Shown one piece after another: positions 1,037 through 24,478 of a stretch of DNA of 25,946 nucleotides. Below the pieces are notes generated by a model that saw only the letters and a list, made by a program, of their open reading frames with translations, ran no database searches and was not told the origin of the DNA. Both the position numbers and the translations under genes were made by a program. Numbering within the stretch: position 1 is the first letter of the stretch; each line of letters begins with the position of its first letter. This DNA comes from a virus: positions 1 to 25,946 of the IMG/VR virus record IMGVR_UViG_3300009151_005385; one strand, given 5' to 3'.

Positions 1037-4000
1037 TTAAATATTCTCAAACGAAGCACCTGTTGGAGTTATGAAGAATTCAATATCTATGAACTCTAAA
1101 GCCTTCGTTGGTTTAAGGTATATTTTACCTACTAATCTATTTGCATCTAAGTCTTCAGGTGTTGAAGAAACTGTTACACGGAAATCGTATAAACCTCTAT
1201 CTCTTCTAATTGAATCTAAGATTGGATTAACACTATCTAAGAATTGTTGTCTTACGATTTGGTCGTTTTGTTCAAACAATAATCTAACAGCGACAGCAGA
1301 TATTAACTTACGAGCTTGTAATAATAATCTTCTTACATTTAATCTATTCAAAGCTGAATCAGCAACTTGTAATGTTTTATTACCCCAAATTACAGTACCA
1401 ACATCAGAGAAAGTAGCGATAGGGTTAATTCTACCTTGATACAATGTATCTCTATTTTCTTGTGTTAATTTTTGTCTAGCTTTAATTGAATTTACAAGAC
1501 CTCTTGTGTAACCCGCTGATGCGAACCAAGGGAATGCAATATTATCTGTTAGAGCTAAGTTTCTACAAACTTCACCTGTAGCTGGTAAATAAATTTGTGT
1601 ATTATTTACAGTATCTCTTGTTAAAATCCAAGGATAATAAGTTGCAGTATAGTTAGAATCAATTCCTGTATTATTTAAGTTATCAACAGCCTCTTGTGAG
1701 TAGATAACATCATACTGATTTGAAGCATCTGGAACAAACATATTATAGTCAGGAGTTGTTACAATATAAACTGAGTCAGCTCTTGAATATTGAATCATAT
1801 CAATAGCTTCTTCACATAAGTTAGAGTTATTAACGTAATCAATACTTGCAGTTGCAAAAATATTTATGTTTGTAGATTCAGGATTTGCGAAACTAAGAAT
1901 ACCAAGTAAGTAAGCATAGTAGTCAGTATTTCCAAAGTCTTGAGTATTATTTTGTACAACAATTCTTTTGAATAAACCATCTCCTGTTGCGTTTGGATAT
2001 CTTGAAGAAGGATAAGCACCAGCTAAATAACCACTTGATCCTAATTGGAAATTATCCGTATTTGTTCTGTGTTCTCTGTATATATCCCATCCATCAAATC
2101 CACCCGCAAAACATACTGTGTATTTTCTAGCATAAATAAAGTAATAAGGATTTTCTTGAGACTCAGGGTCAAATCTAAAATCTGCTGTACCACATTCAAA
2201 AGCTGTTTGACCACTTGTTTGATAAGTATTTGCAATTGTTACAACCGTTGCCCCAGAATCCATATGGAAACCTTTACTTTGAATATTCCAAGGTTCTGCT
2301 GCTTGAGTTGGGTTTGAAATCCAATTAGCTGGTGTTTGTTTTCCTTTATAAGTTAAGAATGACTCATCAACACCATATTGAGTTGAGAAACCTAAATAAG
2401 ATCTTCTAACAATATCTCCCGCAGATTCTGTTGTGTTTGCAGAACCACCAAATGGAGGATCAGTAATTGTTTCACCTGGATAAAAATATTTTGTTTTATA
2501 TTGAATATATGGTGATGGATACTCAGAAACATTATCATATTCTCTTTGAATATATCCACGGAATCCACAAGGAATTGCATCTATAGGTGCTCCGTCAGCT
2601 AATTCAACCATAATATATTTTGAAATCAACGCATATTCACCATTTGAAGTACCAATTTTAACACCAATAAAGTTGTTAGAACCTGGATCCATATTACAAT
2701 TGGTGAATTTTTCAATTACAACAGGAGCTGAATCAGTATCGTAGAAGTTTCTAACTAATACATCAAATGACATATTATTAAATGAAAGATTAGCAATTGA
2801 AACTTTAACTTCCATATTTGCAGAATCACCATCAGAAATTGATATAAACTTAAATAAATTATAAACTTTATTACCTCTTAATTCTGAAACCAAAAATGGT
2901 GTTTCAGGTGATTGGTATTTTTCCAAATTATAAGCAATCGATGTATTATTTTCACTTCTAGCATCTGGAAGACTAATTAAAAAACAATTCAATCCTTTAA
3001 TGTAACCTTTTTGATAAGCAATATTTAATGATGATTGATAAGATTCTTCAACAAATACAGGTACTGAATATCTTGATTTACCAAAATTATCTTCACCAAA
3101 TACTTTTGTAATATATTTTGAAGAAGAAGCTAATAATGAAGTTTCAAATTGGAATGTTGTATTATCTTTAGTTGCCCCTGATAATAAAAATGTTCCATAA
3201 GGATTTGTACTTACACCAGAATATGAACCATCACAAACCATAGTTAATCCCGTTGTTTCATATTTAGGTCCATGATTTTCAGAATCAGCGTTGTTAGTAT
3301 ATTCTGAAATACCTCTTGAACGTAAAGTAGCAACAACCATATTATTATATTCACTATATGCAGTTCCTGAGAAAGTATATATTGTACCTGATATTGATCC
3401 TGAATATGAATCATTAGATCCTGATACTATAGAACTAACAATATAATCAAAAGAATAACCTGAATAGTTATCACCACGTGGTTCAGTAAGAATATTATCA
3501 AAATTTGCATAATACCAAGGGTCATTTGAACCTGAACTTAAATCATTATATTCAATATCACCACTTCCTGGTACACCATAAACATTTTTTACATTTGGAT
3601 ATGCATTTACCAATGAATACCAATCCTCAGCAGGTATTGACCCATAAATTACACAAGTATTACCTGAAGCACCTGAAGTATCAGCAATATTACTAATGTA
3701 ATTATTAAAATCAGTCTCTAAAGTTGAAACACTACCATCACTTAATCTATATTGATTAGTGTAACTATCTTGGATTGTAGCAGGTAAAGTTGAAGTATTT
3801 AATGTAACCGTATTTGCAGAATTACTACCTGTAAAAGTAGCGGTAAATACAGTTCCCGCAGAAGCTTCAGTAAACCCAATTGTTAAAGGGTCAACATTCG
3901 CAGATACGGTGATTGTCCAAGAAGGACCCGCATCGTATCCCGATAACCCTAATACTCTTGTTACAAAAAGTTGGTTTGATTGTTGCAAATATGATTTAGC

Positions 4001-4249
4001 AATATAAGCCGCCTCATATTTTGGAATTTGTGTATTTACAAATTTAACAGGTTCCGTTCCACCAAAATAGGCTTGAAACTCATCATAGTTAGTTATGAAA
4101 ATTGGTTCAAAAGCTGGACCTTTAATTGTTTCTCCAACTATACCCAACGTCGTTACACCGACACTCTGAGCTACGAATGATAAATCCGTTTCGGATGTAT
4201 ATACTCCAGGTGATACGAATACTTTTTTGTTTGCTTGTGCTGTTGCCAT
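1037..4249 (-). CDS. Contractile tail sheath protein (T4 gp18-like), enlarged
   Basis: This protein forms the contractile sheath around the tail tube. The N-terminus (KVFVSPGVYTSETDLS, then GIVGETIKGPAF and a TNYDEFQAYFGG segment) is the classic sheath start. The C-terminal part has the conserved sheath core, including an LNVRRLLL segment and a final beta-rich region (TPEDLDANRLVGKIYLKP then IEFFITPTGASF). At 1070 residues it is far longer than T4 gp18 (659). The extra length lies in the middle and is rich in Ser, Thr, Gly, Asn and Tyr, consistent with inserted surface domains. A segment LVRNFYDTDSAPVVIEKF is typical of marine T4-like sheaths. No frameshift is seen. The upstream leader contains the plus-strand RHH gene at 4370-4531. 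Confidence 0.93.
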   Translation of the reverse strand: MATAQANKKVFVSPGVYTSETDLSFVAQSVGVTTLGIVGETIKGPAFEPIFITNYDEFQAYFGGTEPVKFVNTQIPKYEAAYIAKSYLQQSNQLFVTRVLGLSGYDAGPSWTITVSANVDPLTIGFTEASAGTVFTATFTGSNSANTVTLNTSTLPATIQDSYTNQYRLSDGSVSTLETDFNNYISNIADTSGASGNTCVIYGSIPAEDWYSLVNAYPNVKNVYGVPGSGDIEYNDLSSGSNDPWYYANFDNILTEPRGDNYSGYSFDYIVSSIVSGSNDSYSGSISGTIYTFSGTAYSEYNNMVVATLRSRGISEYTNNADSENHGPKYETTGLTMVCDGSYSGVSTNPYGTFLLSGATKDNTTFQFETSLLASSSKYITKVFGEDNFGKSRYSVPVFVEESYQSSLNIAYQKGYIKGLNCFLISLPDARSENNTSIAYNLEKYQSPETPFLVSELRGNKVYNLFKFISISDGDSANMEVKVSIANLSFNNMSFDVLVRNFYDTDSAPVVIEKFTNCNMDPGSNNFIGVKIGTSNGEYALISKYIMVELADGAPIDAIPCGFRGYIQREYDNVSEYPSPYIQYKTKYFYPGETITDPPFGGSANTTESAGDIVRRSYLGFSTQYGVDESFLTYKGKQTPANWISNPTQAAEPWNIQSKGFHMDSGATVVTIANTYQTSGQTAFECGTADFRFDPESQENPYYFIYARKYTVCFAGGFDGWDIYREHRTNTDNFQLGSSGYLAGAYPSSRYPNATGDGLFKRIVVQNNTQDFGNTDYYAYLLGILSFANPESTNINIFATASIDYVNNSNLCEEAIDMIQYSRADSVYIVTTPDYNMFVPDASNQYDVIYSQEAVDNLNNTGIDSNYTATYYPWILTRDTVNNTQIYLPATGEVCRNLALTDNIAFPWFASAGYTRGLVNSIKARQKLTQENRDTLYQGRINPIATFSDVGTVIWGNKTLQVADSALNRLNVRRLLLQARKLISAVAVRLLFEQNDQIVRQQFLDSVNPILDSIRRDRGLYDFRVTVSSTPEDLDANRLVGKIYLKPTKALEFIDIEFFITPTGASFENI

Positions 4250-5569: not shown

Positions 5570-5983
5570 TTATTTCTTTACTATAAATATTTTATTATCG
5601 GAATTAACCATATCAACTTCTTTTGCATGATATATCGGTGTTTTGTCGTTCTTATAAACAAATGAATCGTATTTGTATGGATTATATGTTATCACATGTT
5701 CTCCGTTCGGTCTTGGAATATCATAACAAGGATATTCACAATAATCTAATAACCTTCCAATAACAAATGCATGAACATTCTTACTTTTATCCGATCTAAC
5801 TTTTAATTTACCACCTTGTCTAACTCTAAATTCAACATCTTCAAGTTTAACATAATCTGCATGCATAATAACTTTACTATCATATGTAACTGAAAAAGTA
5901 TGTTTGTGTAAATTATAATACACCATAACTTTCTTACCAATAAATAATGAATCAAATTGTGATTCTGTTATAATAACTTTCAT
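5570..5983 (-). CDS. Hypothetical protein in the neck-gene operon
   Basis: This 137-residue protein is not recognised. Its N-terminus (MKVIITESQFDSLF) resembles the short I-x-E-S-Q leader seen on various small proteins of environmental T4-like phages, but that does not give a function. The body alternates beta-strand-like and charged segments and has two close cysteines in a CEYPCYD segment. No membrane segment or signal peptide is visible. Its start codon overlaps the stop of the gp14-like gene as TAATG (5981-5985), and the gp15-like gene starts one base after its stop. It is therefore probably translated with both neck genes and may be a virion or assembly protein. Confidence 0.55.
   Translation of the reverse strand: MKVIITESQFDSLFIGKKVMVYYNLHKHTFSVTYDSKVIMHADYVKLEDVEFRVRQGGKLKVRSDKSKNVHAFVIGRLLDYCEYPCYDIPRPNGEHVITYNPYKYDSFVYKNDKTPIYHAKEVDMVNSDNKIFIVKK
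5582..5589 (-). promoter_or_regulatory. TATTTATA octamer upstream of the gp15-like gene
   Basis: On the minus strand this reads TATTTATA, 13 bases before the ATG at 5568. It lies inside the 3' end of the preceding gene, which would allow independent transcription of the gp15-like gene. The promoter role is inferred only from the repeated placement of this octamer in the window. Confidence 0.3.
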
Positions 5984-6547: not shown

Positions 6548-8299
6548 ATGGAAATAAGTTTAGAATCAAGAGCAATGTCCTTATTGGAAACATATGAGGG
6601 TGCAAATAACTATTTGCTTGAGATAAAAAGAAAATCCCAAATTAATAAAAAATTCTACCCAACAAGAAGTCAATCCGAATATATTATTGCCAATTATAAT
6701 AAGACACCCAAGGTTGCCAAAAAGTGGGTTATACTTGACGCTTACTTCGCACAAAAACTTGCTGATGATAAATTATTAACTGTAGTTCCTGAAAAGATAT
6801 GGGTTGAAAAGTTATTGGTTGAAAAGGAAACATCGTTTCATATTTGGGGTAAGATAACTGAAAAACAAGAACTCCATGATTTTTGGTTACCGAAAGCGGC
6901 AATTATAAAAGATAATACCGTTAAAAATGTTGTAATTAATTATGAAAAATATTCTCACCGTCCACCATTATCTCACCAAAAAGAGGCAATCCAAAAATTG
7001 GTTGAAAATAAAAAGTTTATACTTGCCGACGATATGGGTCTTGGAAAAACTACTTCAACTATTATTGCTGCTATAGAATCCAACTCAAAAAAAGTTTTAA
7101 TTATTTGTCCGGCAACACTTAAAATTAACTGGAAACGAGAAATTGAAAACTACTCCGATAAATCTGTCTACATTGCTGAAGGAAAGAATTTTAGTTCAGA
7201 TGCTGACTATGTTATCATAAATTACGACATTATAAAAAATTTCCATGAAATTAAGAAAAAAGATGACTCGAAAATTCTTAACTCCAATTTTGATTTGGTT
7301 ATCGTTGACGAAGCACACTATATCAAAAATGGTTCCGCCCAAAGAACAAAACTAATAAATGACCTTGTAAAAAAAGTTGATAGACTTTGGTTATTATCAG
7401 GAACTCCAATGACCTCAAGACCAATGGATTATTTTAATCTATTAAGTTTAGTTGATTCACCCGTAGCCAAAAACTGGTTAGCTTACGCAGTAAGATATTG
7501 TAGTGGGTATCAATTTAATGCTGGTGGTAAAAAGATATGGAATGTAACAGGTGCTAGTAATCTTGAAGAATTAAGAGACCGAACATCAGGAACAATATTA
7601 AGAAGATTGAAAGAAGATGTTCTTGAGCTTCCTGATAAAATTATAACTCCAGTATATTTGAGATTAAAATCAAAAAATTATGAGGAAGTTATGGGAGAAT
7701 ACTATGATTGGTATGATAAAAATCCTAATGAATCCAAATCATTAACAGTTCAGTTTACCAAACTAACCAAGATAAGACAAATTATTGCTGATGAAAAAAT
7801 TTCACAGACAATTGAATTGGCAGAAAATATTATAGAGCAAGGTAAAAAAGTTATTATATTTTGTAATTTTACTGACTCACTTAATAAAATCGCAGAACAT
7901 TTTGGAAAAATTGCAGTTAAACTTGATGGGTCTATGTCTAAACCAAACAGACAACATAGCGTAGATGAGTTCCAAGATAATGAAAAGGTAAAAGTATTTG
8001 TTGGAAACATTAAAGCCGCAGGAGTCGGTATCACCTTAACCGCTGCTGAAGCAGTTATCATGAATGACTTATCATTTGTACCTTCAGACCATGCCCAAGC
8101 AGAAGACAGAGCTTATAGATACGGGCAGAAAAACAACGTCTTAGTATATTATCCCATCTTTGAAAATACTATTGAAGGAATTATCTACGACATATTAAAC
8201 AATAAAAAACAAGTGATTGCCACTGTGATGGGGGACAATCAAGACAGCGGTGATGTTGCTGAAGAAATCTTAAAGAGAATTAATGAAATGCGTCGTTAA
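6548..8299 (+). CDS. SNF2-family DNA helicase/translocase (SMARCAL1-like)
   Basis: This 583-residue superfamily 2 ATPase has Walker A DDMGLGKT (residues 161-168), motif Ia around IICPATLKINW (about 185-195), Walker B DEAH (254-257), motif III SGTP (284-287) and a C-terminal lobe ending in QAEDRAYRYGQ (517-527), the SNF2 arginine-finger motif VI. The compact lobes without a long insert resemble SMARCAL1/HARP-type annealing helicases and those of T4-like phages. It probably acts on replication forks or recombination intermediates, a role like that of UvsW, though it is not a UvsW-type sequence. Residues 1-135 are an uncharacterised accessory domain. It is followed after 42 bases by the superoxide dismutase fusion gene, with a TATTTATA element between them. 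Confidence 0.9.
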   Translation: MEISLESRAMSLLETYEGANNYLLEIKRKSQINKKFYPTRSQSEYIIANYNKTPKVAKKWVILDAYFAQKLADDKLLTVVPEKIWVEKLLVEKETSFHIWGKITEKQELHDFWLPKAAIIKDNTVKNVVINYEKYSHRPPLSHQKEAIQKLVENKKFILADDMGLGKTTSTIIAAIESNSKKVLIICPATLKINWKREIENYSDKSVYIAEGKNFSSDADYVIINYDIIKNFHEIKKKDDSKILNSNFDLVIVDEAHYIKNGSAQRTKLINDLVKKVDRLWLLSGTPMTSRPMDYFNLLSLVDSPVAKNWLAYAVRYCSGYQFNAGGKKIWNVTGASNLEELRDRTSGTILRRLKEDVLELPDKIITPVYLRLKSKNYEEVMGEYYDWYDKNPNESKSLTVQFTKLTKIRQIIADEKISQTIELAENIIEQGKKVIIFCNFTDSLNKIAEHFGKIAVKLDGSMSKPNRQHSVDEFQDNEKVKVFVGNIKAAGVGITLTAAEAVIMNDLSFVPSDHAQAEDRAYRYGQKNNVLVYYPIFENTIEGIIYDILNNKKQVIATVMGDNQDSGDVAEEILKRINEMRR

Positions 8300-8341: not shown

Positions 8342-9880
8342 ATGAAAAAAATAGAAGAAAAAATAATACAACTTGAAACACAAATACTTGAGACCCAAAT
8401 CATACAAGAAAAAGAGTTGTTATTAACCGAAATGAAAAAGATTGGGATTGAAAAACTTCCTTACTCTTACTCCGCCCTCAAAACATTTATTGATCCACAG
8501 ACAATGAAATTACATTACACAAAGCATTATTTTGGCTATGTGGATAAATTAAATGACGCATTGTCTAAAAAGAAATATGGCGATTTAGAGTTAGAACAAA
8601 TTATCAAAAACATAAGTCGTTATGATAAAACAATCAGAAACAATGCCGGTGGGGCCTTTAATCATGCGTTGTTTTGGAATTTTTTAACCCCAACACCAAA
8701 AAAATTAGGAGGTGAACTCTACAAAAAACTCACAAAACAATACGGGACATTTACGGCATTCAAAAAAGAATTTGATAAAGTTGCCAAAGAAAGATTTGGT
8801 TCTGGGTGGGTTTGGTTGGTATTAACTGCAAAGAACACATTCAAGATTATGTCTACACCAAATCAGGATAATCCGTTAATGAATGTTATTGAAGGTGGCG
8901 GATTCCCATTATTGGGATTAGATGTTTGGGAACATGCTTATTATTTGAAATATCATAACAAGAGAGATGAATATATCACAAACTTTTGGAAGGTAGTAAA
9001 TTGGGATTTTGTTTCCAAGATGTATGAAATGAAAACTGAAACAAAATTAATGGAATCCGTTAATTTTGAAAAATTATTGACCGAGTCTGTTGAAGCAAAA
9101 TTCTGTGAACCTAAAGAAGTTTTATTTTATAAAGAATTAATAAACAATTCTCAAATTAAGAAAATATATCAAAACGGAGTTACAGATTCATTAAAACAAG
9201 TATTCCACCAATTTTGGGTAGATGGAACAAGTAGTGAAATGGCAGGATTTTATGGTGTTGAATCAAAAGAAGGTAGGTCAATATTAAATAATCTTAATAC
9301 AAACTTTAATACGTTTTGTCTTCTTGTTAAAGCAGTTAACAAAGAAATTATAAAAATTGGAAAAGAAGAAAAAATGTTTGATTTTTCTAAAAAAGAAAAA
9401 AGAACAGTATCTGAAATCACAAGATTTGTTAAAGCATTAGACCATTTCAAAAAAAATATTTTTACCAAAAATAATGAAGATTTTCTTAATATTATTAGAG
9501 TATTAAAGAAACTATGGGATAGAGGTCAAAAATCTGAAGATAATGTATTAAATAAAGTAGAAGATTATTTTGAAGGAAATGCCAAATTAATTAAAGTTGG
9601 AGGACATGGACAAAAAAATGACGCCATTAAAGGTATTGATTTGAAAATAGAAATGGATGGAAAAATCCATACCGCACAAGTAAAACCATATTCAAATACA
9701 TCACTTGATGGTGATAAAGTTAAAATATATGATACTGGAAATGTTAAACCATATAATGTAGATTGGTTAATTTTTATTCAAACTAAAACAAAGAAAATTT
9801 TAATATTTAAAAATAATCCAATAAGTAATGAGAATGTTTATGTATTTAAGATAAATTCTCTATTATACGAAATAGAATAG
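8342..9880 (+). CDS. Fe/Mn superoxide dismutase fused to a nuclease-like C-terminal domain
   Basis: A 512-residue fusion. Residues 1-35 form a Glu/Lys/Gln-rich helix, probably coiled coil. Residues 39-230 are a complete Fe/Mn superoxide dismutase. The four metal ligands are present: H58 (LHYTKHY), H108 (NNAGGAFNHALFW), D194 and H198 (LGLDVWEHAYY). The gateway Tyr66, the FGSGWVWL segment and an NQD segment (Q175) of the Mn-type also appear. SOD converts superoxide to oxygen and peroxide. Residues 240-512 do not belong to that family. Their end (about 398-450) has SEDNVLNKVEDYF, then GIDLKIEMDG (D433) and AQVKP (Q446, K448), fitting a PD-(D/E)xK-type nuclease core with QxK instead of ExK. No stop or frameshift separates the parts. 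No signal peptide is seen, so it is cytosolic or virion-borne. The nuclease call is inferred; the SOD call is firm. Confidence 0.85.
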   Translation: MKKIEEKIIQLETQILETQIIQEKELLLTEMKKIGIEKLPYSYSALKTFIDPQTMKLHYTKHYFGYVDKLNDALSKKKYGDLELEQIIKNISRYDKTIRNNAGGAFNHALFWNFLTPTPKKLGGELYKKLTKQYGTFTAFKKEFDKVAKERFGSGWVWLVLTAKNTFKIMSTPNQDNPLMNVIEGGGFPLLGLDVWEHAYYLKYHNKRDEYITNFWKVVNWDFVSKMYEMKTETKLMESVNFEKLLTESVEAKFCEPKEVLFYKELINNSQIKKIYQNGVTDSLKQVFHQFWVDGTSSEMAGFYGVESKEGRSILNNLNTNFNTFCLLVKAVNKEIIKIGKEEKMFDFSKKEKRTVSEITRFVKALDHFKKNIFTKNNEDFLNIIRVLKKLWDRGQKSEDNVLNKVEDYFEGNAKLIKVGGHGQKNDAIKGIDLKIEMDGKIHTAQVKPYSNTSLDGDKVKIYDTGNVKPYNVDWLIFIQTKTKKILIFKNNPISNENVYVFKINSLLYEIE

Positions 9881-9912: not shown

Positions 9913-11037
9913 ATGGCAGTTATACCAGAACCAGAAAGGTCAAAAATTTATACGAGAATCAAACATCTCTTAGGTGCACCACTTAGAAGTGTGGAGGTTG
10001 AAGATGAAATGATGGATTCTTTAATGGAATTATCTATTCAAGATTACGAAGAATATATTCTACAATGGCTAATTGATAGTCAATGGGTTAACCTTGTTAA
10101 TTTGAATATGAGCGAGAAATCTGTTGCTAAAGCATTGGTAACAAGAACAATGGATTTTGAACAACAATTTTCATACTCATACTCTAAAATTGTAGGTCTT
10201 CAAACTATGGGTCCTTGGGTACTTAAAAAAGATTATTTTACTTTAAGTGCTAACACACAAAACTATGAAATTCCTGCAGGAAGAGAGGTTAATGAATTAT
10301 TATGGTTTAGTGACCAAGCTTGGACGGCATTTGGATTAGGTGGAGTTTCTGGATTTGGAGCTGGTGTAGGACTTGGTGCTGAACAACCAGGATTTGCTCA
10401 AATGGGTAATCAAGGTTCTTATTATATGATGTCAGGATTTGATTATTTAATTAGAATGCAAGAAGCCAACATTCTTAATAGAATATTAGGTGGATCTTTA
10501 ACTTATAGAATTACAGGATTACCTGATGGTAAAAAAAATATTTTCTTATATAATACTCCAGGTGGTAAATTTAGTTGGAGCACTTATAGCAACTACGTAG
10601 GAAAGGCTGTTTGGTATTGGTATTATGATGTCGGTCCTGATGATAGAGCAGCATGTTTAAAGGCAAATAAAGACATTATTTTATTACCTACTGATGTTCC
10701 TCTTGATGAATTATCGTGGGAAGATTTGAATGTCCCTGCTAAACAATGGGTTAGAAGATGGTTTACGGCATACGTGAAAGAAACTTTGGCGAGAGTGAGA
10801 GGAAAATATAGTGGAAACTTAAAAACTCCTGATTCTGAAATAACAATGGATTACCAAAGTTTATTAACTGAAGCTAAAGATGAAAAATCAAAATTATTGG
10901 AAGAATTAACTGGCGCTGAAGGTTGGTTAACAAGGTTAAGACCAGAAAAGGTCATGGAACGCGAAGCCCTTATTGCGGAAAATCTAAATAAACAAATGAA
11001 GTTCAGAGCAATGCCTCGTCAAATATATGTAATCTAA
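9913..11037 (+). CDS. Neck / head-completion protein (gp13-like)
   Basis: The 374-residue protein opens with YTRIKHLLGAPLRSVEVEDE (about residues 12-31) and a following acidic helix, DYEEYILQWL. This is the RLGAP...VELTDEQ arrangement of T4 gp13 and its cyanophage relatives. gp13 forms, with gp14, the neck ring that closes the DNA-filled head and receives the tail. The middle is Gly-rich (about residues 140-170, GLGGVSGFGAGVGLG), and the C-terminus is a charged helical region ending in a basic MPRQIYVI. It is longer than T4 gp13 (309 residues). It lies on the plus strand, divergent from the gp14- and gp15-like genes, with the helicase and SOD genes in between. The next small gene starts four bases after its stop. 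Confidence 0.65.
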   Translation: MAVIPEPERSKIYTRIKHLLGAPLRSVEVEDEMMDSLMELSIQDYEEYILQWLIDSQWVNLVNLNMSEKSVAKALVTRTMDFEQQFSYSYSKIVGLQTMGPWVLKKDYFTLSANTQNYEIPAGREVNELLWFSDQAWTAFGLGGVSGFGAGVGLGAEQPGFAQMGNQGSYYMMSGFDYLIRMQEANILNRILGGSLTYRITGLPDGKKNIFLYNTPGGKFSWSTYSNYVGKAVWYWYYDVGPDDRAACLKANKDIILLPTDVPLDELSWEDLNVPAKQWVRRWFTAYVKETLARVRGKYSGNLKTPDSEITMDYQSLLTEAKDEKSKLLEELTGAEGWLTRLRPEKVMEREALIAENLNKQMKFRAMPRQIYVI

Positions 11038-14729: not shown

Positions 14730-14876
14730 CCAAGAAAAAAAGAAGAAGATAAAAAAATTAAATTTGCGATTAGTTTAGACCCTAAATTATTTAAACGAAT
14801 GGAAGAAGATATTACTAATAAATCAGGGCTTATTGAAAAATTACTTAGAGAACACTATGGAAAAAAAGATTTGTAG
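14724..14876 (+). CDS. Small ribbon-helix-helix DNA-binding protein
   Basis: A 50-residue protein with a basic tail (MKPRKKEEDKK), a beta strand IKFAISLDP, helix 1 KLFKRMEEDI and a second helix after TNKSG (LIEKLLREHYG). The strand, the DP/SP turn and the Lys/Thr-Asn-Lys-Ser-Gly helix turn are typical of CopG/Arc-type RHH repressors. It overlaps the HNH gene that follows by 20 bases, so the two are translationally coupled and probably act together, the RHH protein perhaps limiting nuclease expression. It shares an upstream heptamer with the RHH gene at 4370 but is not closely similar to it in sequence. No clear Shine-Dalgarno is seen. Confidence 0.6.
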   Translation: MKPRKKEEDKKIKFAISLDPKLFKRMEEDITNKSGLIEKLLREHYGKKDL

Positions 14877-15600
14877 TAAATGTAAAATTGAAAAAGATGT
14901 TTGTGAGTTTTATGTTGATAAAACAAAAATAGACGGGAAATATTCTTGTTGTAAATTATGTAAAAAATCTTATTCTAATACAAGAACTGACGAAATAAAA
15001 ATATACTTAAAAAAATGGAGGCTAGATAATCCTAATTTTGGTAAAGAGTATCGTAAAAAAAACCCTAATTATGTTAAAGAATATTACCAAGATAATAAAG
15101 ATATTATGTTATCAAGAGTTAAAAAACATTATCACGATAATAAAGAAAAAAATTTGGACAAATTAAGAAAACGTAGTAAAGAATATTATGAAAATAATAA
15201 AAAAAACCGTTTAGAATATAGTAAAATTTATCGTAAAAATAACCATAATAAACGCAATGAATATGTTAAAAATAGAAAGTTAACCGACCCCATTTATCGT
15301 CTATCGTCTATAGTAAGAAATAGAATAAGAACATTTCTTAAATTAAAAAACATAACAAAAAATAACCCCACATTTAATATTGTTGGTTGCCCGCCAGAAT
15401 TTTTAAAAGAATATTTAGAGAAACAATTTACTGAAGGAATGACTTGGGAATTAATGGGTCAAGATATTCATATTGACCATATAATGCCTTTATCTTCCGC
15501 AAAAACTAAAGAAGAAATTTATAAACTTTGTCATTATACAAATCTTCAGCCCTTATGGGCTGAAGATAATTTGAAAAAAGGAGCTAAGATAAAATCTTAA
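14857..15600 (+). CDS. HNH endonuclease with N-terminal zinc ribbon, homing type
   Basis: A 247-residue protein. Cysteines C6, C9, C32 and C35 form a zinc ribbon at the N-terminus. Residues 40-150 are a long Lys/Asn/Tyr-rich region with repeated EYYxxNK-like units, probably a DNA-binding helical array. The C-terminus is an HNH core: IHIDHIMPLSSA (D207, H208), then YTNLQPLW (N229) and DNLKKG. This layout is typical of free-standing phage homing endonucleases, which cut DNA and spread their own gene. ATG 14857 was chosen over a TTG eight codons upstream because MEKKICSKCK is the usual start of this family. It sits between two minus-strand blocks. Its stop interlocks with that of the glycosyltransferase gene at 15597-15600 (TTAA). 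Confidence 0.85.
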   Translation: MEKKICSKCKIEKDVCEFYVDKTKIDGKYSCCKLCKKSYSNTRTDEIKIYLKKWRLDNPNFGKEYRKKNPNYVKEYYQDNKDIMLSRVKKHYHDNKEKNLDKLRKRSKEYYENNKKNRLEYSKIYRKNNHNKRNEYVKNRKLTDPIYRLSSIVRNRIRTFLKLKNITKNNPTFNIVGCPPEFLKEYLEKQFTEGMTWELMGQDIHIDHIMPLSSAKTKEEIYKLCHYTNLQPLWAEDNLKKGAKIKS

Positions 15601-17270
15601 CTCTCTTTTCTTAATCCATCAGCATAAAATTCAAAACGGTCATGCTCTGTTGGTGTTAATAACAAAATACCTGGTTTAATATTACCTTTAACTGTTTCTT
15701 GATAACAATACGACATAAGAGTTTGTTCGAATGGATGTGCCCATTTTGTTTCTAAATAACATTTATAATTACCTGGTTTACTTAACACAATTGGCCAGTT
15801 AGACAGATAGATTTCACCGTCAACATATGGTAATCCTTGATGTATTTTAATGTTATTAAATTTAGTTCTTGGAGCGTTGGGGTCTAAACCTTGAACAGGT
15901 AAAGATGATTTTTCAGGAAATAATTCTACCCTAACATGTTGAGGCACATTATACCATGAAAATTGTATATCATTTGATCCATAAAATTCAGTAAAACTTA
16001 ATTTTAAAAAATCAAAATTTTCATTTTTCATGATTTGTAATGATTTTGAATATAAGTTTGGAACAAATCTATTAAAACCATTTCTACACACTTCACCTTT
16101 TTTAGGATAAAACGCCATATCATCTTCAAACCAGTAACAGAAATCTAATCCTGTTTCATCAAAATGTTCTGCAACAAATACTCTACCACCAACAATTCCA
16201 ATATTATCTTTTTTAATATGTTCAAATCCATATTCTTCACAAAGTTCTTTATATCTTGGAGTTGTTGATAAATCGGTTGAATTGTCTAATAAAAATTTCT
16301 TAGGTTTAAGAATAAAATCTTTATCATATTCTAACATTGATTGGATTAATGTTTGAAATTGATTTGGGCTATTAAATGTGATAACATATAGACCAACTTT
16401 ATTGGTATCCAAAGTATTTTCAAGAGATATTTTACCTTCAGATTTAACTTTTAAAGTATCATTTTTTAAATCTTCAAAAAACTTATTAATTAAACCATTT
16501 GATTCAATTTCAAAATAATTAATTAAATCTGAATGTTTATAAGTCATAATGGAAAAAATACTTTCTTCAGTGCCCATATAACCTTCATCTAAAGTAGATT
16601 TTAATACACTATAATATATTCCATTAATATCTGATATTGTATGTTTTGGACCACCGAAGAATCCTCCACGAGCAACTTTATTTACTTTATCACCAGCAAT
16701 TGAATTTAATTTATTATATTCAAATCCGTGAATTTCTGTTTCGGCATCATATGGAAAACATATAAAAGAAAATTTTGAAATGTATTTGGATAATTTATCT
16801 AAAACCTTATCATGCGTAAAATATCCTGGATGGACGGTATTGGATAATCCTCCGTCAATCCAAAACATATATTCAGAATCAAATTTATCCATTATCCTGG
16901 CGTCATTTAATAAGAATAGTTTAGACATTACAAGTGGATTATAATTTTCCAATCTTGCTTGGGTAGATTCTTTTAACCACCCTGATCTGTTTAACCAATC
17001 TTCTTGGGTTCTTATTTTTTGAATCTTATCAAAAAATTCATTATCTCTGAACCAAGATAATGATCTTACAATGAATTGAGTGTTTGAATCACTTCTTCTA
17101 TCAAAAACAAACTTTTTAAGTTCCTCATCACCAAAAATAATAAGATTATTATCAACTTCTAAAAGTTTCTCAAATTTATCTAAATAATGTTGGTATGATC
17201 TTGACCATCCTTCAGATAATTCTCCTCTTCCAATATCCCAAATACCGGTTACTAATGTTATATTACTCAT
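15597..17270 (-). CDS. Two-domain glycosyltransferase (HtrL/WlaTC-like plus GT-A)
   Basis: A 557-residue protein of two parts. Residues 1-255 resemble the HtrL/WlaTC glycosyltransferase family: an N-terminal VTGIWDIGR strand, NPLVMSKLFLLNDA, FWIDGGLS (D139), GGFFGG and GTEESIFSIMTYKH. Residues 290-557 are a second GT-A-type domain starting VGLYVITFNSPNQF with an FEDDM metal-binding motif (E382, D383, D384). Two catalytic domains in one chain suggest consecutive sugar additions. The N-terminal half is a relative of the next gene upstream (shared WID-x-GLS and GG-x-FGG). It is the last gene of the glycosylation operon; its start overlaps the preceding stop by eight bases. Sugar donors and acceptor are unknown. 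Confidence 0.72.
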   Translation of the reverse strand: MSNITLVTGIWDIGRGELSEGWSRSYQHYLDKFEKLLEVDNNLIIFGDEELKKFVFDRRSDSNTQFIVRSLSWFRDNEFFDKIQKIRTQEDWLNRSGWLKESTQARLENYNPLVMSKLFLLNDARIMDKFDSEYMFWIDGGLSNTVHPGYFTHDKVLDKLSKYISKFSFICFPYDAETEIHGFEYNKLNSIAGDKVNKVARGGFFGGPKHTISDINGIYYSVLKSTLDEGYMGTEESIFSIMTYKHSDLINYFEIESNGLINKFFEDLKNDTLKVKSEGKISLENTLDTNKVGLYVITFNSPNQFQTLIQSMLEYDKDFILKPKKFLLDNSTDLSTTPRYKELCEEYGFEHIKKDNIGIVGGRVFVAEHFDETGLDFCYWFEDDMAFYPKKGEVCRNGFNRFVPNLYSKSLQIMKNENFDFLKLSFTEFYGSNDIQFSWYNVPQHVRVELFPEKSSLPVQGLDPNAPRTKFNNIKIHQGLPYVDGEIYLSNWPIVLSKPGNYKCYLETKWAHPFEQTLMSYCYQETVKGNIKPGILLLTPTEHDRFEFYADGLRKES

Positions 17271-18144
17271 AAATTCTATTTAATTCTTCTAAAATTTTAT
17301 AAAAACTTTTATTTTGTTCAAGTGTTTCATCCGATACTCCTTGTGGAGAATTACCTTTAAACCACCATATATCAAAATCTTTTCTTTCGAATAATTCTCT
17401 ATGGTTTACACTCATTAAACTCATAATAACTTCTTCATGTAAAATTACTTTATCCTCACTTATAATCTTTTGAAGATAGTCTTCAAATATATTTACAACC
17501 TCATCCCACCTATCTCTATGACCTCCGAACAGTCCTCCGATAATATGAATATTTCTATCGTATTCTTTATACCATTTAGGGTCAACAGTTCCAGACCAAA
17601 AATTTCTATCATTTTCTTTACCAATAAGTAAAAATTTATCTCTTGTATCTTCAATTACATTATGTAAAAAATCATTATTAAATAAATTACTTTCATAATA
17701 ACATCTCATTGGACCAACCGCAGTTAAGTATTTATTAGGGATTAAACCACAATGAGATAATCCTGCATCAATCCAATAATAATAATCATAACTCTTATCT
17801 TCTTTCCACCACCAATGAAATTTACTGTATTGTATTTCAACACATCTATCAGAGTGTTTTGCCTCATCAATATTTTTATATTGATTAATTAAATCTTTAA
17901 ACTTGGTATTTGATATATCAAACACTTCAAATACTAATTTATCTGAAGATATGTTATGTTGGGTATAAAAAAAATCTTTTAAATCTTCAATTTCTCTATC
18001 TGAAGTATAACATAAAAAGTCCGCGTCACTCATTTTTAATAAGGATAATAAACTCCATTTGTAATGTCCCCCCCTACTTGGTCTTCCTCCAAATTCGGTT
18101 CCATGTAAATCACTATAAATCGATGTTATAAATTTAATTTTCAT
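17263..18144 (-). CDS. HtrL/WlaTC-like glycosyltransferase
   Basis: A 293-residue protein of the HtrL/WlaTC type, paralogous to the N-terminal half of the downstream gene: FITSIYSDLHG at the start, YWIDAGLSHCG (D126), GGLFGG and HEEVIMSLMSVNH. WlaTC is linked to sugar-chain synthesis in Campylobacter and HtrL to the E. coli LPS core region; donor and acceptor are not known here. The ATG at 18142-18144 was chosen because it overlaps the TGA of the upstream gene as ATGA, which indicates translational coupling, and because residue 2 onward begins the domain. A frame-open extension of 14 residues to 18186 is not needed. Several Trp-rich segments (HWWW at about 110) are present. Cytosolic, no signal peptide. 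Confidence 0.72.
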   Translation of the reverse strand: MKIKFITSIYSDLHGTEFGGRPSRGGHYKWSLLSLLKMSDADFLCYTSDREIEDLKDFFYTQHNISSDKLVFEVFDISNTKFKDLINQYKNIDEAKHSDRCVEIQYSKFHWWWKEDKSYDYYYWIDAGLSHCGLIPNKYLTAVGPMRCYYESNLFNNDFLHNVIEDTRDKFLLIGKENDRNFWSGTVDPKWYKEYDRNIHIIGGLFGGHRDRWDEVVNIFEDYLQKIISEDKVILHEEVIMSLMSVNHRELFERKDFDIWWFKGNSPQGVSDETLEQNKSFYKILEELNRIYE

Positions 18145-18866
18145 ATACTTTCTGTAAATCTTTGTGAATAATTTATATTTCCCCAATCCGAAAAATGTGG
18201 TAAATGAAATGGGGCAAAATTATTTGTTGGTTTAATTTTATGTGGAATTTCTGAATAGTAAACTCTATCCATCATATCTCCGTCTTCGGCGCCCCATCCA
18301 ACATATTTTTCATTGAATCCGCCTAAAGATGTTAATAAATTAGTGTCGGAAATATAAACGCCGCCTAATCCACCAGTATGGTGTCTTAATGGTCCATTTT
18401 CTTTAGCACCTGAATATGCGTAAGACCAATCAGCTTTATCAATGATAAAAGTATCATCAACAATATAATCCGAAACATTGTCATTTAATTTTGCCAAATC
18501 AAAAGTGCAAACATCTCCTTTATTTAGGGATTTAATTAATTCCAAAAGTTTTTCATAATCTTGTTCGTGAAAAAATGCGTCACAATCTATAATCATAAAA
18601 AAATCATAATCTTGTTTATCTTTTAGAATTATGTTAGTTTTTTCTGCTTTTTTATAGACACCCAAGGGGTATGATATGTGAATTGCGTCAGAGATTATTT
18701 GTTCAGGGGAAAAATCGTATAGAGATGCTTTTGCGGTAATTCCGTTTGAGTTAAGATAATTTGATAATTTTTTTAATTCTTTCCAAGAAAAATTAACATT
18801 TCTTATTCTGGTTGAATCAGGTTGACCATCATCCCAAAATTTCATATTTAAAGAGATACTATTCAT
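18141..18866 (-). CDS. GT-A glycosyltransferase, GT7-like C-terminal motif
   Basis: The 241-residue protein has a DxD-type motif in MIIDCDAFF (D94, D96) and a downstream GGFNEKYVGWGAEDGD segment (about 182-197). The W-G-x-E-D-x-D element is the acceptor/metal signature of the galactosyltransferase GT7 C-terminal domain and of related GT2/GT27 enzymes. It probably transfers a hexose or HexNAc from a nucleotide sugar onto a growing glycan. The start at 18866 overlaps the preceding gene by eight bases; Met8 (18845) is an alternative start. Its stop is interlocked with the next start. The exact donor cannot be read from sequence. Confidence 0.7.
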   Translation of the reverse strand: MNSISLNMKFWDDGQPDSTRIRNVNFSWKELKKLSNYLNSNGITAKASLYDFSPEQIISDAIHISYPLGVYKKAEKTNIILKDKQDYDFFMIIDCDAFFHEQDYEKLLELIKSLNKGDVCTFDLAKLNDNVSDYIVDDTFIIDKADWSYAYSGAKENGPLRHHTGGLGGVYISDTNLLTSLGGFNEKYVGWGAEDGDMMDRVYYSEIPHKIKPTNNFAPFHLPHFSDWGNINYSQRFTESI

Positions 18867-19794
18867 TTACTAATATTTTAATTGTTTCCCAAATATTATA
18901 TTTAGGATTTATGAAAAAATCTTTTTTTAATTTTTTTATGTTATCAGAGTATTGTTCGTATAGTCCTGATTCATTTTCTACTATAGATTTAACTTTATTA
19001 ACCATTTCATCCATAGTCATATTATTAAGAGAGATGTAACAATTATCGGGTATCAATTCATTAATGTTGGAACATCCTAAATAAATTGGAATGGTATTTG
19101 TTAAAACAGCGTCCCAAAATTTTTCACTAATATAATTTTTTTGAATGGTATTTTCGCAAGCCACGGAAAATTTATAGTCATCAAGACCAGCGTGTTTGTT
19201 CCACACCTCTCCTTTAATATTTTCACCATTAGATTCCCAATAAGTTCCGTAAACATCAATCCTTTTATCTTTAGATAATTCAATACCTAAATTGGTTCTT
19301 TCTTCATAATTTATCTTATGAGTATTTGGATTCTGTAAATGATTGTAATGACTGGAATAATCTTTTCTAACTATGATTGAAACTGACTTGTTTTTTGAAT
19401 AGTCTTTATCTTTTAATTTAGAAGACCAATCCCACTCTTCTCTATGGTCATTCTCGCCTCGACCTGCATAAAACATTGGCAATAATGTTTCAATATATTC
19501 TTCTCTATCAGGGTATTCTAATTTGTCCGATACTAATATTTTTGAACAGTAATCGTGTATACCATCTTTTGGCTGATTTGGAGACCATAAAGGTTCTTGT
19601 GAAACATAAAAAGTCCTTTCTTTTGGGGTCTCAATTTTATCCCAATCGGTTCTGCCAAAAACTATGGTAAAATCAGGGTTTTCTGTAACAAATGAATATT
19701 GATTTAAATCATCATTTGGTACAAATTGTCTTATCATTCTTGCATTTAACAAGGGTGTATTTGTCCACCAGCATTCTAATTTTATTTTAATCAT
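18859..19794 (-). CDS. GT10 (alpha-1,3-fucosyltransferase-like) glycosyltransferase
   Basis: The 311-residue protein carries the GT10 C-terminal donor-site motif: YKFSVACEN (207-215) followed by YISEKFWDAV (221-230) and TIPIYLG. This matches the YKFxLAFEN...YxTEKLxxAL...PVxxG signature of alpha-1,3/1,4-fucosyltransferases. These use GDP-fucose to decorate GlcNAc- or Glc-containing chains; other members act on other acceptors. The N-terminal half (a GRTDWDK segment, YVSQEPLW) is the variable acceptor domain. GDP-fucose synthesis genes are not in the window, so the donor must come from the host or other phage genes. It lies 17 bases after the preceding gene in the operon. No transmembrane anchor is present, unlike eukaryotic members. 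Confidence 0.8.
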   Translation of the reverse strand: MIKIKLECWWTNTPLLNARMIRQFVPNDDLNQYSFVTENPDFTIVFGRTDWDKIETPKERTFYVSQEPLWSPNQPKDGIHDYCSKILVSDKLEYPDREEYIETLLPMFYAGRGENDHREEWDWSSKLKDKDYSKNKSVSIIVRKDYSSHYNHLQNPNTHKINYEERTNLGIELSKDKRIDVYGTYWESNGENIKGEVWNKHAGLDDYKFSVACENTIQKNYISEKFWDAVLTNTIPIYLGCSNINELIPDNCYISLNNMTMDEMVNKVKSIVENESGLYEQYSDNIKKLKKDFFINPKYNIWETIKILVNE

Positions 19795-19811
19795 AACTTA
19801 TTTTATTTTAA

Positions 19812-20411
19812 TTATATAATATCTAATGATAAACTGTTATATCTCACAAATTTATCAGGACAATATTTAAAAATATGGTCATTTTGTAATTGTCTAATAT
19901 CTAAAGCATAATGTCCGTCGGCATTCCTATAACTAATATTATGTATACATGTTTTTTTTAACATACGATATCTCATCATACAAGATCCAATATCAAAAAG
20001 ACCTAAATCAAATCTATGTTCACCATCACCATACAATCTAATTTTTTCCGTTAAACCTGCTTTTTGTGAAAATAAAACTAAATCAACATCAGAATCTTTT
20101 TCTTCATTATATGTTGAAATTAAATCCCAAGTAACGACATTATCGTCGTCTAAAAAATAACACCAATCATTATTATCTACAGGTATATCAGTAATAAAAT
20201 AATTCCTTTGTTCATGACCCCAAATATGTGAAGTGTCTATCTTATAAAATTTAACTCTATTATCCCCTTCAAGGAAACTAACATCTTCTTCACCAATGCT
20301 ATTACTACCCTTAATTAAATGCCAATTAAAATCCTCTACTTGATGTTTAATTGTTGAATATACTGCTCTTAAATTATTATACCGATAAAGTGGGGTAATA
20401 AAATGTATCAT
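19812..20411 (-). CDS. GT-A (GT2-like) glycosyltransferase
   Basis: A short (199 residue) GT-A protein. It begins with MIHFITPLYRYNNL, a typical strand-loop for the nucleotide-binding domain, has an EQRNYFI acceptor helix, and an FLDDDN metal motif (D88-D90) after WCY. It lacks the long C-terminal region of larger family 2 enzymes, so it may be a minimal transferase. Its start overlaps the upstream gene by four bases (20408-20411, ATGA). A DGHYALDIRQL segment lies near the C-terminus, where the catalytic base of these enzymes is usually found. Donor and acceptor unknown. Confidence 0.7.
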   Translation of the reverse strand: MIHFITPLYRYNNLRAVYSTIKHQVEDFNWHLIKGSNSIGEEDVSFLEGDNRVKFYKIDTSHIWGHEQRNYFITDIPVDNNDWCYFLDDDNVVTWDLISTYNEEKDSDVDLVLFSQKAGLTEKIRLYGDGEHRFDLGLFDIGSCMMRYRMLKKTCIHNISYRNADGHYALDIRQLQNDHIFKYCPDKFVRYNSLSLDII

Positions 20412-21256
20412 ACTATATAATTTTTGAAAATTGAAAACATTTCATTATCTGAATCGGTCTTCATTTTTTTTATTGTTAAATCTAAATTAGTTAAATATTT
20501 TTGTCTAAAAAAATCGTAATTCTCTAAAACATTATTTATAGTTTCAACTATCGTATCATATGGTGACCATATAATGTGTTTGCTAATTGGGATATGTTCT
20601 TTATATGGAGAGTCTTCACTAATAACTAATATACCCGTCAATAACGCTGGTAAAACCCTTAATTCTTCTAAAGTACTATACCTGTCTGTTTGATGAATAT
20701 TAACCAATACTTTATATTCATCCATAACTTTTTTTATGATATTTTTACAATATATGTTGCCAACACCATAAACATTATGGTAATAATCCATATCAACTTT
20801 TTGATGAATATTATTTCTTCTTGAAGTTGAACTATGAATTGTTAAACAATTTTTAAATCTATTATCACTGTTACTAATATCATATAGTAATGGTGGATAA
20901 TATCGAAAAACATCCGAATTTTCTTTAAAATAATCGGATGTTTTTATATGATTTAGATTAGCATTTGAATACTCAAAAACTGATTGTAATTTAATTAGTT
21001 CGTCAAATTTATTTACAGTACAAGAATAACCATTATTATACTCATTTTTAATAAACGTATGTTCGTACTGAAAATCTAAATTAATGTCTTTTAATACATT
21101 ATTACACCCAAAATTAACTGAATATGGAACATTATTATTTGTTAAAAATAATGTTATATCATTAAGTATGTATTGATAATATTCGTTTAGATTTCCATTG
21201 TTCCATTTTGTATCATAAAATAACTCACTATTATTAATTATTTTACTTTTAATCAT
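20408..21256 (-). CDS. GT-B-like glycosyltransferase, group 1-type C-terminal domain
   Basis: The 282-residue protein has no DxD motif. Residues 182-235 form a Rossmann-like half: YKVLVNIHQTD, then STLEELRVLPALLTGILVISEDS and a WSPYDTIVETI segment. The pattern of a conserved Glu-Glu-x-Arg helix followed by a strand with VISED matches the C-terminal nucleotide-sugar site of GT-B enzymes of the group 1/CgeB-like type. Residues 1-130 are a divergent N-terminal acceptor domain, very Asn-rich. Overlaps both neighbours by four bases, consistent with translational coupling. The sequence is diverged, so a non-catalytic role is possible. Confidence 0.55.
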   Translation of the reverse strand: MIKSKIINNSELFYDTKWNNGNLNEYYQYILNDITLFLTNNNVPYSVNFGCNNVLKDINLDFQYEHTFIKNEYNNGYSCTVNKFDELIKLQSVFEYSNANLNHIKTSDYFKENSDVFRYYPPLLYDISNSDNRFKNCLTIHSSTSRRNNIHQKVDMDYYHNVYGVGNIYCKNIIKKVMDEYKVLVNIHQTDRYSTLEELRVLPALLTGILVISEDSPYKEHIPISKHIIWSPYDTIVETINNVLENYDFFRQKYLTNLDLTIKKMKTDSDNEMFSIFKNYIV

Positions 21257-22014
21257 AAATTTTCTTTATTATCCATAAAAAATTTTTCATAAGGATATAA
21301 ATTAATGTCAGGTAATACTTTATCACATGGCATACCAAACATACCTGAAATATTACTTTTAGGATTATTACAATTGTATTTTGAACCAAAAGTAAAATTT
21401 CTATTAAAAAATGAATATTTGCCGACTCCTGGTTTTATGTGTGTATGTCTAATATCAGAAACAATATTATAAACTCCTTGTACATATAATTGATAAACGT
21501 CTTTATTTTTACTTTCTAACATTCTATATGTGATGTCTCCGTCCTCTTCACCAAATCCTAATAATCGTTCATCAAAATAACCTAATTCATCAATAAGATT
21601 TTTGTTAACTACAAAAAATGAAAATGTGCCATTTATTTTTGAGATGCCGTAATATTCTTCGGATTCAATATGAGAAGAAACAACCTCAAACATATTTTCA
21701 TTGACTAAATCAATATCGTCATTTAATAATAAAACATTCTCTTTAGTTGAGTGTATTAACAATGTGTTCCACATTTTAGATAGTCCTCTTGTTTCTACAA
21801 AAAATATTGGGAATATGTTAGGATGTGATAAGCAGAGGGTAAGTATTTTTTTTCTATATTCTTCGTCAAAATTAGAATCCTTTTCACCGTTTATACATAA
21901 ATAAATGTTATTTGGAACATTTAATTCTTTAATTTTGTTAATTAATTTTTCAATAAAATCATATCTTAATGAAAATGTTGTAATACCTATATCATAATTA
22001 TTTTTCATATTCAA
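21253..22014 (-). CDS. GT2-family glycosyltransferase
   Basis: A 253-residue GT-A enzyme with an N-terminal DIGITTFSLRYDF strand, a LCINGEKD donor loop, the LLNDDID metal motif (D99, D100, D102) and a GYFDERLLGFGEEDGD segment (145-160), the family 2 acceptor-site signature, with E156 or D158 a likely catalytic base. It adds a sugar from a nucleotide donor. It shares the G-F-G/W-G-x-E-D-G-D theme with the protein at 18141-18866. The given ATG (22014) overlaps the upstream methyltransferase by 17 bases; Met3 (22008) is an alternative start. Cytosolic; no membrane segment. Confidence 0.75.
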   Translation of the reverse strand: MNMKNNYDIGITTFSLRYDFIEKLINKIKELNVPNNIYLCINGEKDSNFDEEYRKKILTLCLSHPNIFPIFFVETRGLSKMWNTLLIHSTKENVLLLNDDIDLVNENMFEVVSSHIESEEYYGISKINGTFSFFVVNKNLIDELGYFDERLLGFGEEDGDITYRMLESKNKDVYQLYVQGVYNIVSDIRHTHIKPGVGKYSFFNRNFTFGSKYNCNNPKSNISGMFGMPCDKVLPDINLYPYEKFFMDNKENL

Positions 22015-22558
22015 AATTTGTTTGTTTTCTATGAATTAAAAGTTTATTGTTATTATGTAATTCAAAAGGAATATTTTTTTCTTTAAACCATTCTATGGTA
22101 TTAGCACTATCATGTGCGTGTAAATCTTCGATAATGTATAAACCATTTTCTTTTAAATGAGGATATAATGATTCAAAACTTTTAATATGGTGAAAATGGG
22201 TATGAAGTCCGTCATCAATGATAATATCGTAATCACTACCATATTCATTTACACATTGGGTTAAATCTTCAGTTACGCTTTGGTCACCAATGAATATTCG
22301 GACATTTTCTTTTTCATATTTTTTACAATCTTCGTTAATATCAAAACCAATAAAATCTATGTTTGAAAAAAACTCAGTCCACATTTTAATTGAAGCTCCA
22401 GGAAATCTTGGATCTGCAACTCCTATTTCTAACATCTTAATTTTTTCGTCTTTTAATGGATAAAATAATTCTTGATATGTTTCGGTATAAGAGTGATATT
22501 CAAAATGTTGAGTACCTTTATCGGTACCAAGTCTATTTGCCATTTCTGTTAGCGTCAT
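21998..22558 (-). CDS. Sugar O-methyltransferase-like class I SAM enzyme
   Basis: A 186-residue class I methyltransferase. Its N-terminus (ANRLGTDKGTQHFEYHSYTE) with a following LEIGV SAM-binding loop (43-47), PGASIKMW, FDI, IIDDGLHTHFHH (113-124) and YIIEDLHA (141-148) match the pattern of metal-dependent deoxysugar O-methyltransferases of the MycE / ElmM-type family (GTDKG...YxxxY...LEIGV...PGASxxMW...IDDGSH...EDLH). Those enzymes methylate sugar hydroxyls on antibiotics. Here the substrate is likely a sugar made by the neighbouring transferases. It is a paralogue of the next gene upstream in the operon and starts 14 bases after it. The exact substrate is inferred. Confidence 0.72.
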   Translation of the reverse strand: MTLTEMANRLGTDKGTQHFEYHSYTETYQELFYPLKDEKIKMLEIGVADPRFPGASIKMWTEFFSNIDFIGFDINEDCKKYEKENVRIFIGDQSVTEDLTQCVNEYGSDYDIIIDDGLHTHFHHIKSFESLYPHLKENGLYIIEDLHAHDSANTIEWFKEKNIPFELHNNNKLLIHRKQTNFEYEK

Positions 22559-22572
22559 AAATTAATAGGTTA

Positions 22573-23178
22573 TTATTTCTTTTTTATTATTGATGTAACA
22601 CTTTGGTTATAATCTGGAGTTTTAGACCATATTCTAATATCAGCAACATTATTTTTTATGTATTCTTTTTCGTCATCTAAGATATGATTGGATGCAATGT
22701 TATTAGTAAATTTAAATGATTGTAACATATCTAAAGTGGTTATTAAATCATCAGGAAAAATAGTTCCAAAATTTTCTAATCTTGATGTATGTAAATCTTC
22801 TAAAATATAAATTCCACCTTTTTTTAATCGACTGAATAATGCTCCAAATGATACTTGTTGTTGTTTCATTGTGTGTCCACCATCATCAATGATTATATCA
22901 AATTCGACATTAGTTTCTTCTAAAAATCTGTTTAATGCGTCTCTATCTTCTTGATTAACAATATATGTTTTAACTCTCTTATCGTCATACTGGGTTTTAT
23001 CCTCAATGTCGATTCCATATATATTACCATCCTTAAACTTATCTGATAGATATTTAAGGCTACCGCCATAATATATTCCAATCTCTAATATGTGTTTACT
23101 ATCACTCATATCATTAAAATATGGTTCGTAAACATCTATGAATCCGTGTAGATATTTATCCGTATTATATTCTTCCAT
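22573..23178 (-). CDS. Sugar O-methyltransferase-like class I SAM enzyme
   Basis: A 201-residue relative of the downstream methyltransferase. It starts EEYNTDKYLHGFIDVYEPYF, then LEIGIYYGGS (31-40, SAM loop), YGIDIEDK, IIIDDGGHTMKQQ (95-107) and ILEDLHTS (125-132). These are the same landmarks (TDK, LEIG, IDDGxHT, EDLH) seen in MycE/TylF-type sugar O-methyltransferases; the Asp and Glu-Asp residues would hold the divalent metal. Two non-identical copies in tandem suggest methylation at two positions or on two sugars of the glycan. It begins ten bases after the GT60-type gene. Protein-independent small-molecule methylation cannot be excluded. Confidence 0.72.
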   Translation of the reverse strand: MEEYNTDKYLHGFIDVYEPYFNDMSDSKHILEIGIYYGGSLKYLSDKFKDGNIYGIDIEDKTQYDDKRVKTYIVNQEDRDALNRFLEETNVEFDIIIDDGGHTMKQQQVSFGALFSRLKKGGIYILEDLHTSRLENFGTIFPDDLITTLDMLQSFKFTNNIASNHILDDEKEYIKNNVADIRIWSKTPDYNQSVTSIIKKK

Positions 23179-23188
23179 TTTATTTTTT

Positions 23189-24457: not shown

Positions 24458-24478
24458 AATATTATTTTTAATAAACAT

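Follow-up and report, generated by a model that had tools for sequence, protein, structure and literature searches.

Why should a phage encode a superoxide dismutase (SOD) and a nuclease in one polypeptide, and does such a chain act as a single enzyme? The question is raised by an ORF at positions 8342–9880 (forward strand) of a 25,946-nucleotide stretch of viral DNA, here called the window (positions 1 to 25,946 of IMG/VR record IMGVR_UViG_3300009151_005385). The ORF starts with ATG and encodes 512 amino acids in one unbroken frame. From the N-terminus, the protein comprises a helical leader (residues 1–35, 8342–8446), an Fe/Mn SOD domain (36–230, 8447–9031), an inter-domain linker with two candidate protease sites (231–256, 9032–9109) and a mobile module, which consists of a helical region seen in a structure model (257–390, 9110–9511) and a predicted PD-(D/E)xK nuclease core (391–512 plus stop codon, 9512–9880).

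Relatives of this protein are encoded on hundreds of IMG/VR contigs. A first scan of IMG/VR kept 80 loci, nearly all full-length, and scans by alignment gave at least 584 and at least 447 confirmed relatives. SOD, middle region and nuclease occurred together in 271 ORFs on many contigs, representing 111 unique proteins; this count was made from the loci in hand at that stage, some of which overlap. Overall identity among the 111 fused homologues falls to 43%, and H58, H108, D194, H198, E399, D427, G431, D433, Q446 and K448 are unchanged in all of them. Only a handful of broken versions were present, either frame-shifted or at a contig edge. As 271 homologous ORFs from many contigs keep this frame open, chance and an assembly chimera could be ruled out, and the single uninterrupted frame noted in a preliminary description of the locus was confirmed. 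In a literature search, no paper describing an SOD–nuclease fusion was found.

The SOD domain was recognized by Pfam as Sod_Fe_N (residues 37–115, E = 2.6e-21, 76.3 bits against a curated cut-off of 27) and Sod_Fe_C (residues 124–226, E = 4.9e-39, 132.9 bits against 20.9). Sequence matches to MnSODs in the PDB extend over residues 38–230 with E-values up to 5e-59, the best being bacterial Mn-type enzymes. The metal ligands H58 (8513–8515), H108 (8663–8665), D194 (8921–8923) and H198 (8933–8935) and the second-sphere residues are invariant in 111 of 111 fused homologues. A glycine in the segment NNAGG and a glutamine in NQDNPLM follow the Mn-type pattern (SodA as opposed to SodB). The fold was matched with a Z-score of about 17, but the full-length model is weak in the N-terminal part of the domain (pLDDT under 50 at residues 30–99), so that the case for the SOD rests on sequence. 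With this evidence, a complete, active-looking Fe/Mn-SOD of the predicted Mn type is well supported. The bacterial SodA of Sphingobacterium sp. T2 (PDB 6gsc/5a9g) has the same full domain, ligands and second-sphere residues, whereas the phage protein carries in addition a leader and a 280-residue tail and belongs to a phage-only clade. Unfused SODs of other large phages (the Pseudomonas phage MIJ3/PA5oct group and Vibrio phage 2.275.O) share the Fe/Mn-SOD fold, but are stand-alone, far diverged and have other gene neighbours. A tree of the SODs was left out of the argument, as long branches made its root uninformative.

Residues 236–512 were modelled with AF2 from 42 sequences (pLDDT 85, pTM 0.79). 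With this model, Foldseek returned the homing endonuclease I-Ssp6803I first (E = 5.8e-4) and Hjc second, and VIA-align gave Hjc (Z 8.4), I-Ssp6803I (8.2), SPARDA (8.1) and NhoI (8.1), with RecU, DpnI, PvuII and EcoRV in lower rows. The VIA matches with Z-scores of 8.1–8.4 span 91–114 residues; although such scores are moderate, the top rows are consistent with one another. Among the matches listed by both programs, the PD-(D/E)xK superfamily is overwhelmingly represented. In the model, E399 (9536–9538) lies in the first helix, D433 (9638–9640) at the start of a strand, and Q446 (9677–9679) and K448 (9683–9685) form a Q-x-K motif in the next strand. All four residues are invariant in the 111 fused homologues, and the E..D..QxK pattern holds over the 42 aligned rows, separate fusions included, as well as in more distant copies. 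An alignment across divergent copies of the module, at about 20% identity, retains G, E, G, D, G, D, Q and K, and in their middle region N, T/S and G positions are conserved. Since the active-site pattern is invariant while identity falls to about 20–24%, it is not due to chance. A Z-score near 8 is by itself modest, but the dominance of one superfamily and the fitting active site lead to the assignment of the module as a PD-(D/E)xK nuclease; this assignment is well supported by the model, and metal-dependent cleavage is predicted.

Both domain claims of the preliminary description, namely an Fe/Mn SOD with the four ligands listed above and a nuclease with the pattern D433...Q446-x-K448, were borne out, and E399 was added to the latter. 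Structure prediction and a fold search, which it had proposed for the C-terminal region, recovered a nuclease core. It had named the lack of such a core, or loss of the D/Q-x-K residues in homologues, as grounds against a nuclease; neither occurred. A virion-attachment role had been set against the nuclease as well; virion association is plausible, and it would not refute the nuclease. A glutamine in this position also serves the experimentally active nuclease SPARDA DREN, whose active site is D41, Q60 and K62 (PMC12205087). The core fold and the D..Q-x-K arrangement of the phage module resemble those of SPARDA DREN, I-Ssp6803I and archaeal Hjc, from which it differs by an identity of about 12–14%, an extra helical region in front, the lack of a recognizable Pfam family and its place behind an SOD.

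Outside this group of phages, the module appears isolated. No bacterial relative was found in a scan of one genome each from 84,980 species, on which basis a host-encoded origin was rejected, and among cultured phages no convincing relative was found; weak matches in LR756501 (E = 2) and an Exiguobacterium phage (E = 0.4) were set aside. None of Pfam, PHROG, NCBIfam and PADLOC assigned the module to a family, with phrog_5018 recurring too weakly to be accepted (E 0.04–1.8), and a profile search of the PDB by sequence gave chance matches only. In BFVD, A0A6J5L953, a 501-aa ‘superoxide dismutase’ of an uncultured Caudovirales phage, matches the module with a TM-score of 0.80 by query and 29% identity. 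Judged by this model match, it is evidently the same architecture, already deposited; it is named for its SOD part alone, and no paper on its nuclease was found.

In related phages, the module occurs in other contexts. It is fused to a Phage_L5_gp82-like gene in L061 (1159–2646, reverse strand) and L070 (1121–2629, reverse strand), and likewise in L332, L334, L337 and L342–L348, frequently with an additional zinc ribbon (CDKCGWSW..CHKCGHNN) close to the N-terminus. The window has its own Phage_L5_gp82-like gene at 5570–5983 (reverse strand, Pfam E = 5e-29). As a standalone nuclease of 334–336 aa, starting with MK.I(I/M)LSESQY, the module takes the place of this gene in L323 (4998–5999), L328 (4986–5993) and L287 (3259–4254), all on the forward strand. 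The SODs of these three carry a zincin-like domain (HEWVHEYQ..) at the N-terminus, and in L323 and L328, whose SOD genes are complete, no nuclease follows the SOD. A 582-aa protein of L349 (4989–6734, forward strand) runs from the nuclease module through a zinc ribbon to a second zincin-like domain (HEIRHEEQ); its gene adjoins a ClpA-like gene.

The zincin-SOD proteins differ in what follows the SOD. The shortest tails have 0–8 residues, and tailless forms stop 5–8 residues past the SOD match. Tails of 151–264 residues hold a small domain, which is repeated in L365, and tails of about 350 residues a diverged nuclease. For another two kinds of tail, one of about 343 and one of 378–384 residues, the libraries gave no convincing match. 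The unrelated tail families that lack a Pfam or PHROG match lie in L375 and L382 (6069–7097, forward strand) and in L412 (6063–7214) and L436 (6063–7205), both forward; the first of them contains DFEG..FDVSTPAGDKISCKIV and might be another nuclease.

The domain borders share a short motif. Ahead of the SOD, (L/I)28-x-E30 followed by M31 (codons 28–31, 8423–8434) is kept in 111 of 111 fused homologues, and in the linker the candidate sites are L236-x-E238|S239 (9047–9058) and L246-x-E248|S249 (9077–9088). E238 is conserved in 111 and E248 in 108 of the 111, the P3 and P1 positions being fixed while P2 varies; the rest of the linker is variable and modelled with low confidence. More widely, 166 of 168 proteins have [LI].E immediately ahead of the SOD, including 55 of 57 zincin-SODs, and tailless zincin-SODs end before the junction motif that would follow. 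It also precedes non-homologous tails. All 20 tail representatives have the motif within 35 residues after the SOD, against a background of 0.31 per 35 residues, and 19 of the 20 have its strict form [LI].E[SNQAG], against 0.08; these representatives were chosen at 60% identity and are not fully independent, since the motif that comes first behind the SOD may have been passed down within one gene family. Eight neighbouring protein families, about 3,900 residues, contain three comparable sites only.

In phage T4, the gp21 prohead protease cuts after L/I-X-E (PMC9026906). A gp21-type protease (PF03420) was detected in 10 of the 17 contigs searched, including that of the closest relative, G015, and the gp23 capsid protein (PF07068) in 12 of the 17; the window is no more than a 26-kb piece of its genome. 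The capsid protein of these phages contains FLINE|ASS at the position where T4 gp23 is cut, and their gp21 homologue starts with MKKLRILE|A. Among the proteins of one relative, (L/I)-x-E[SAGQ] is enriched at the N-termini too modestly to count as proof (4.3–4.8 against 2.6 per 1000 residues). N-terminal stretches such as MKVIITESQ, MKKNRINEA, MEFLISESQ and MNKVIKLTER recur in unrelated phage proteins, among them the Phage_L5_gp82-like protein of the window and those of L304 (439–1122), L316 (15601–16218) and L313 (16697–17158); such stretches are possible capsid-targeting sequences.

The gene lies among conserved neighbours. Upstream is a SNF2/UvsW-like helicase (6548–8299, forward strand, Pfam/PHROG), which precedes 112 of the 117 unique fusions, and 32 bases downstream on the same strand an Ad2-like head-tail adaptor gene (9913–11037, phrog_211, E = 4e-11), which recurs behind every one of the 114 unique fusions whose contig reaches far enough downstream. 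In 109 of the 117, helicase, SOD and head-tail adaptor follow one another in this order; among the remaining eight, a contig end intervenes in three, and no helicase was recognized upstream in five. Elsewhere in the window, a tail sheath of 1070 aa (1037–4249, reverse strand) is matched by T4-type sheaths mostly over its last 400 residues or so, which implies a long N-terminal extension or insertion. An endonuclease VII/HNH-like ORF (14833–15600, forward strand, phrog_1035, E = 7e-17) is possibly a free-standing mobile endonuclease. About ten genes at 15597–24493 (reverse strand) look by eye like glycosyltransferases and methyltransferases, and a protein rich in TPTPTNTPT repeats (24530–25909, reverse strand) is perhaps a fibre or adhesin. 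As phages of Flavobacterium and Salinibacter, among others, are relatives by sheath and polymerase, a host in or near the Bacteroidota is possible.

The explanation that we favour, by a modest degree of confidence, is a modular polyprotein of a T4-like phage that would be cleaved by the prohead protease and travel in the virion, with a Mn-type SOD and a PD-(D/E)xK nuclease, both of them probably active. The domains, invariant active sites, module swapping and conserved junction motif are results of the computation; from them we infer cleavage, packaging, injection and the biological roles. During head assembly, a gp21-type protease would cut at E30|M31 and at E238|S239 and/or E248|S249, freeing the SOD (about residues 31–238) and the nuclease (about 249–512) as separate enzymes in the head. 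Both would reach the host together with the genome, in the manner of Alt and the internal proteins of T4; there the SOD would clear superoxide at an early stage of infection, and the nuclease would cleave DNA of the host or competing DNA. Cutting of such a precursor inside the head would account for the junction motif, for the swapping of unrelated domains and for where the gene lies. The likeness to the gp21-processed internal head proteins and Alt of T4 lies in the T4-like phage with gp21 and gp23 homologues, the (L/I)-x-E sites at domain borders and the candidate cargo enzymes. Unlike them, the present proteins hold several enzymes per chain with candidate sites in between and have no clear dedicated capsid-targeting sequence.

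Several points count against this explanation. The 30-residue leader, a helix ending in LTE, aligns without gaps with the linker of zincin-SODs (KINLINEQLILEEKKTIRKEFLLEMKKIGIEK in L389 against KINLITEELKKVETYENQQMFINEMKKIGIEK in L063) and looks more like a remnant of that linker than like a dedicated capsid-targeting sequence, which would have 10–20 residues; the zincin-SODs for their part open with the zincin itself. The (L/I)-x-E motif is short and common in K/E/L-rich proteins, its strict form is only modestly enriched at the N-termini of phage proteins in general, and the P1' residue at E30|M31 is methionine, which gp21 may not accept.

The same data were weighed under other readings. The module could be a mobile element of the homing endonuclease kind, sitting at the 3' ends of genes (SOD, gp82) and spreading by cutting alleles that lack it, with no functional link to the SOD. 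I-Ssp6803I as nearest solved fold in Foldseek, the presence of the module both in several genes and as an ORF of its own, and the existence of SOD genes with and without it agree with such an element. We nevertheless consider it rather unlikely: Hjc and SPARDA fit about equally well, the module is kept with the SOD and with an invariant active site in all counted unique fused genes of the window's clade, the slot behind the SOD is also filled by modules not recognized as nucleases, and the (L/I)-x-E junctions are left unexplained.

Alternatively, the SOD might be an ordinary auxiliary metabolic product at work in the infected cell and the nuclease serve replication, recombination or host-DNA degradation, with no role in the virion and the chain either staying whole or being cut by a host protease. 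An Hjc-like fold would suit recombination, and unfused SOD genes are found in other phages, some near heat-shock and ClpS-like genes; the conserved place beside the head-tail adaptor gene and the prohead-protease-like junctions make this improbable. The preliminary description had suggested joint functions (a redox-triggered nuclease, protection of DNA ends or a superoxide-based device), that is, one bifunctional enzyme whose nuclease would be controlled or protected by redox state or by the activity of the SOD. This would account for one frame with both domains conserved together on hundreds of contigs in one clade. These functions were not upheld, as related phages split the domains, fuse the nuclease to a different gene or replace the tail, and this separability argues against an obligatory redox coupling; the linker, of low confidence and variable except for (L/I)-x-E, also speaks against it, and we regard a bifunctional enzyme as improbable.

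A broader form of the favoured cut precursor, which we put forward tentatively and would not quite expect to hold, is an exchangeable effector polyprotein locus next to the neck genes of a large uncultured T4-like phage group, in which zincin, SOD and nuclease or other units are cut by the protease in the capsid for delivery to the host. Even otherwise, the module represents a nuclease family that was found in phages only, has an invariant active site and lacks a Pfam entry, and as such it is new to the annotation libraries searched. A virion-borne SOD, if true, would point to superoxide as a danger at infection. If the cut precursor is correct, T4-like phages would package multiple enzymes in a single precursor that has protease sites in between, the unit after the SOD being exchangeable, and the conserved (L/I)-x-E joints would give a sequence rule by which virion-delivered enzymes may be found among uncharacterised phage proteins.
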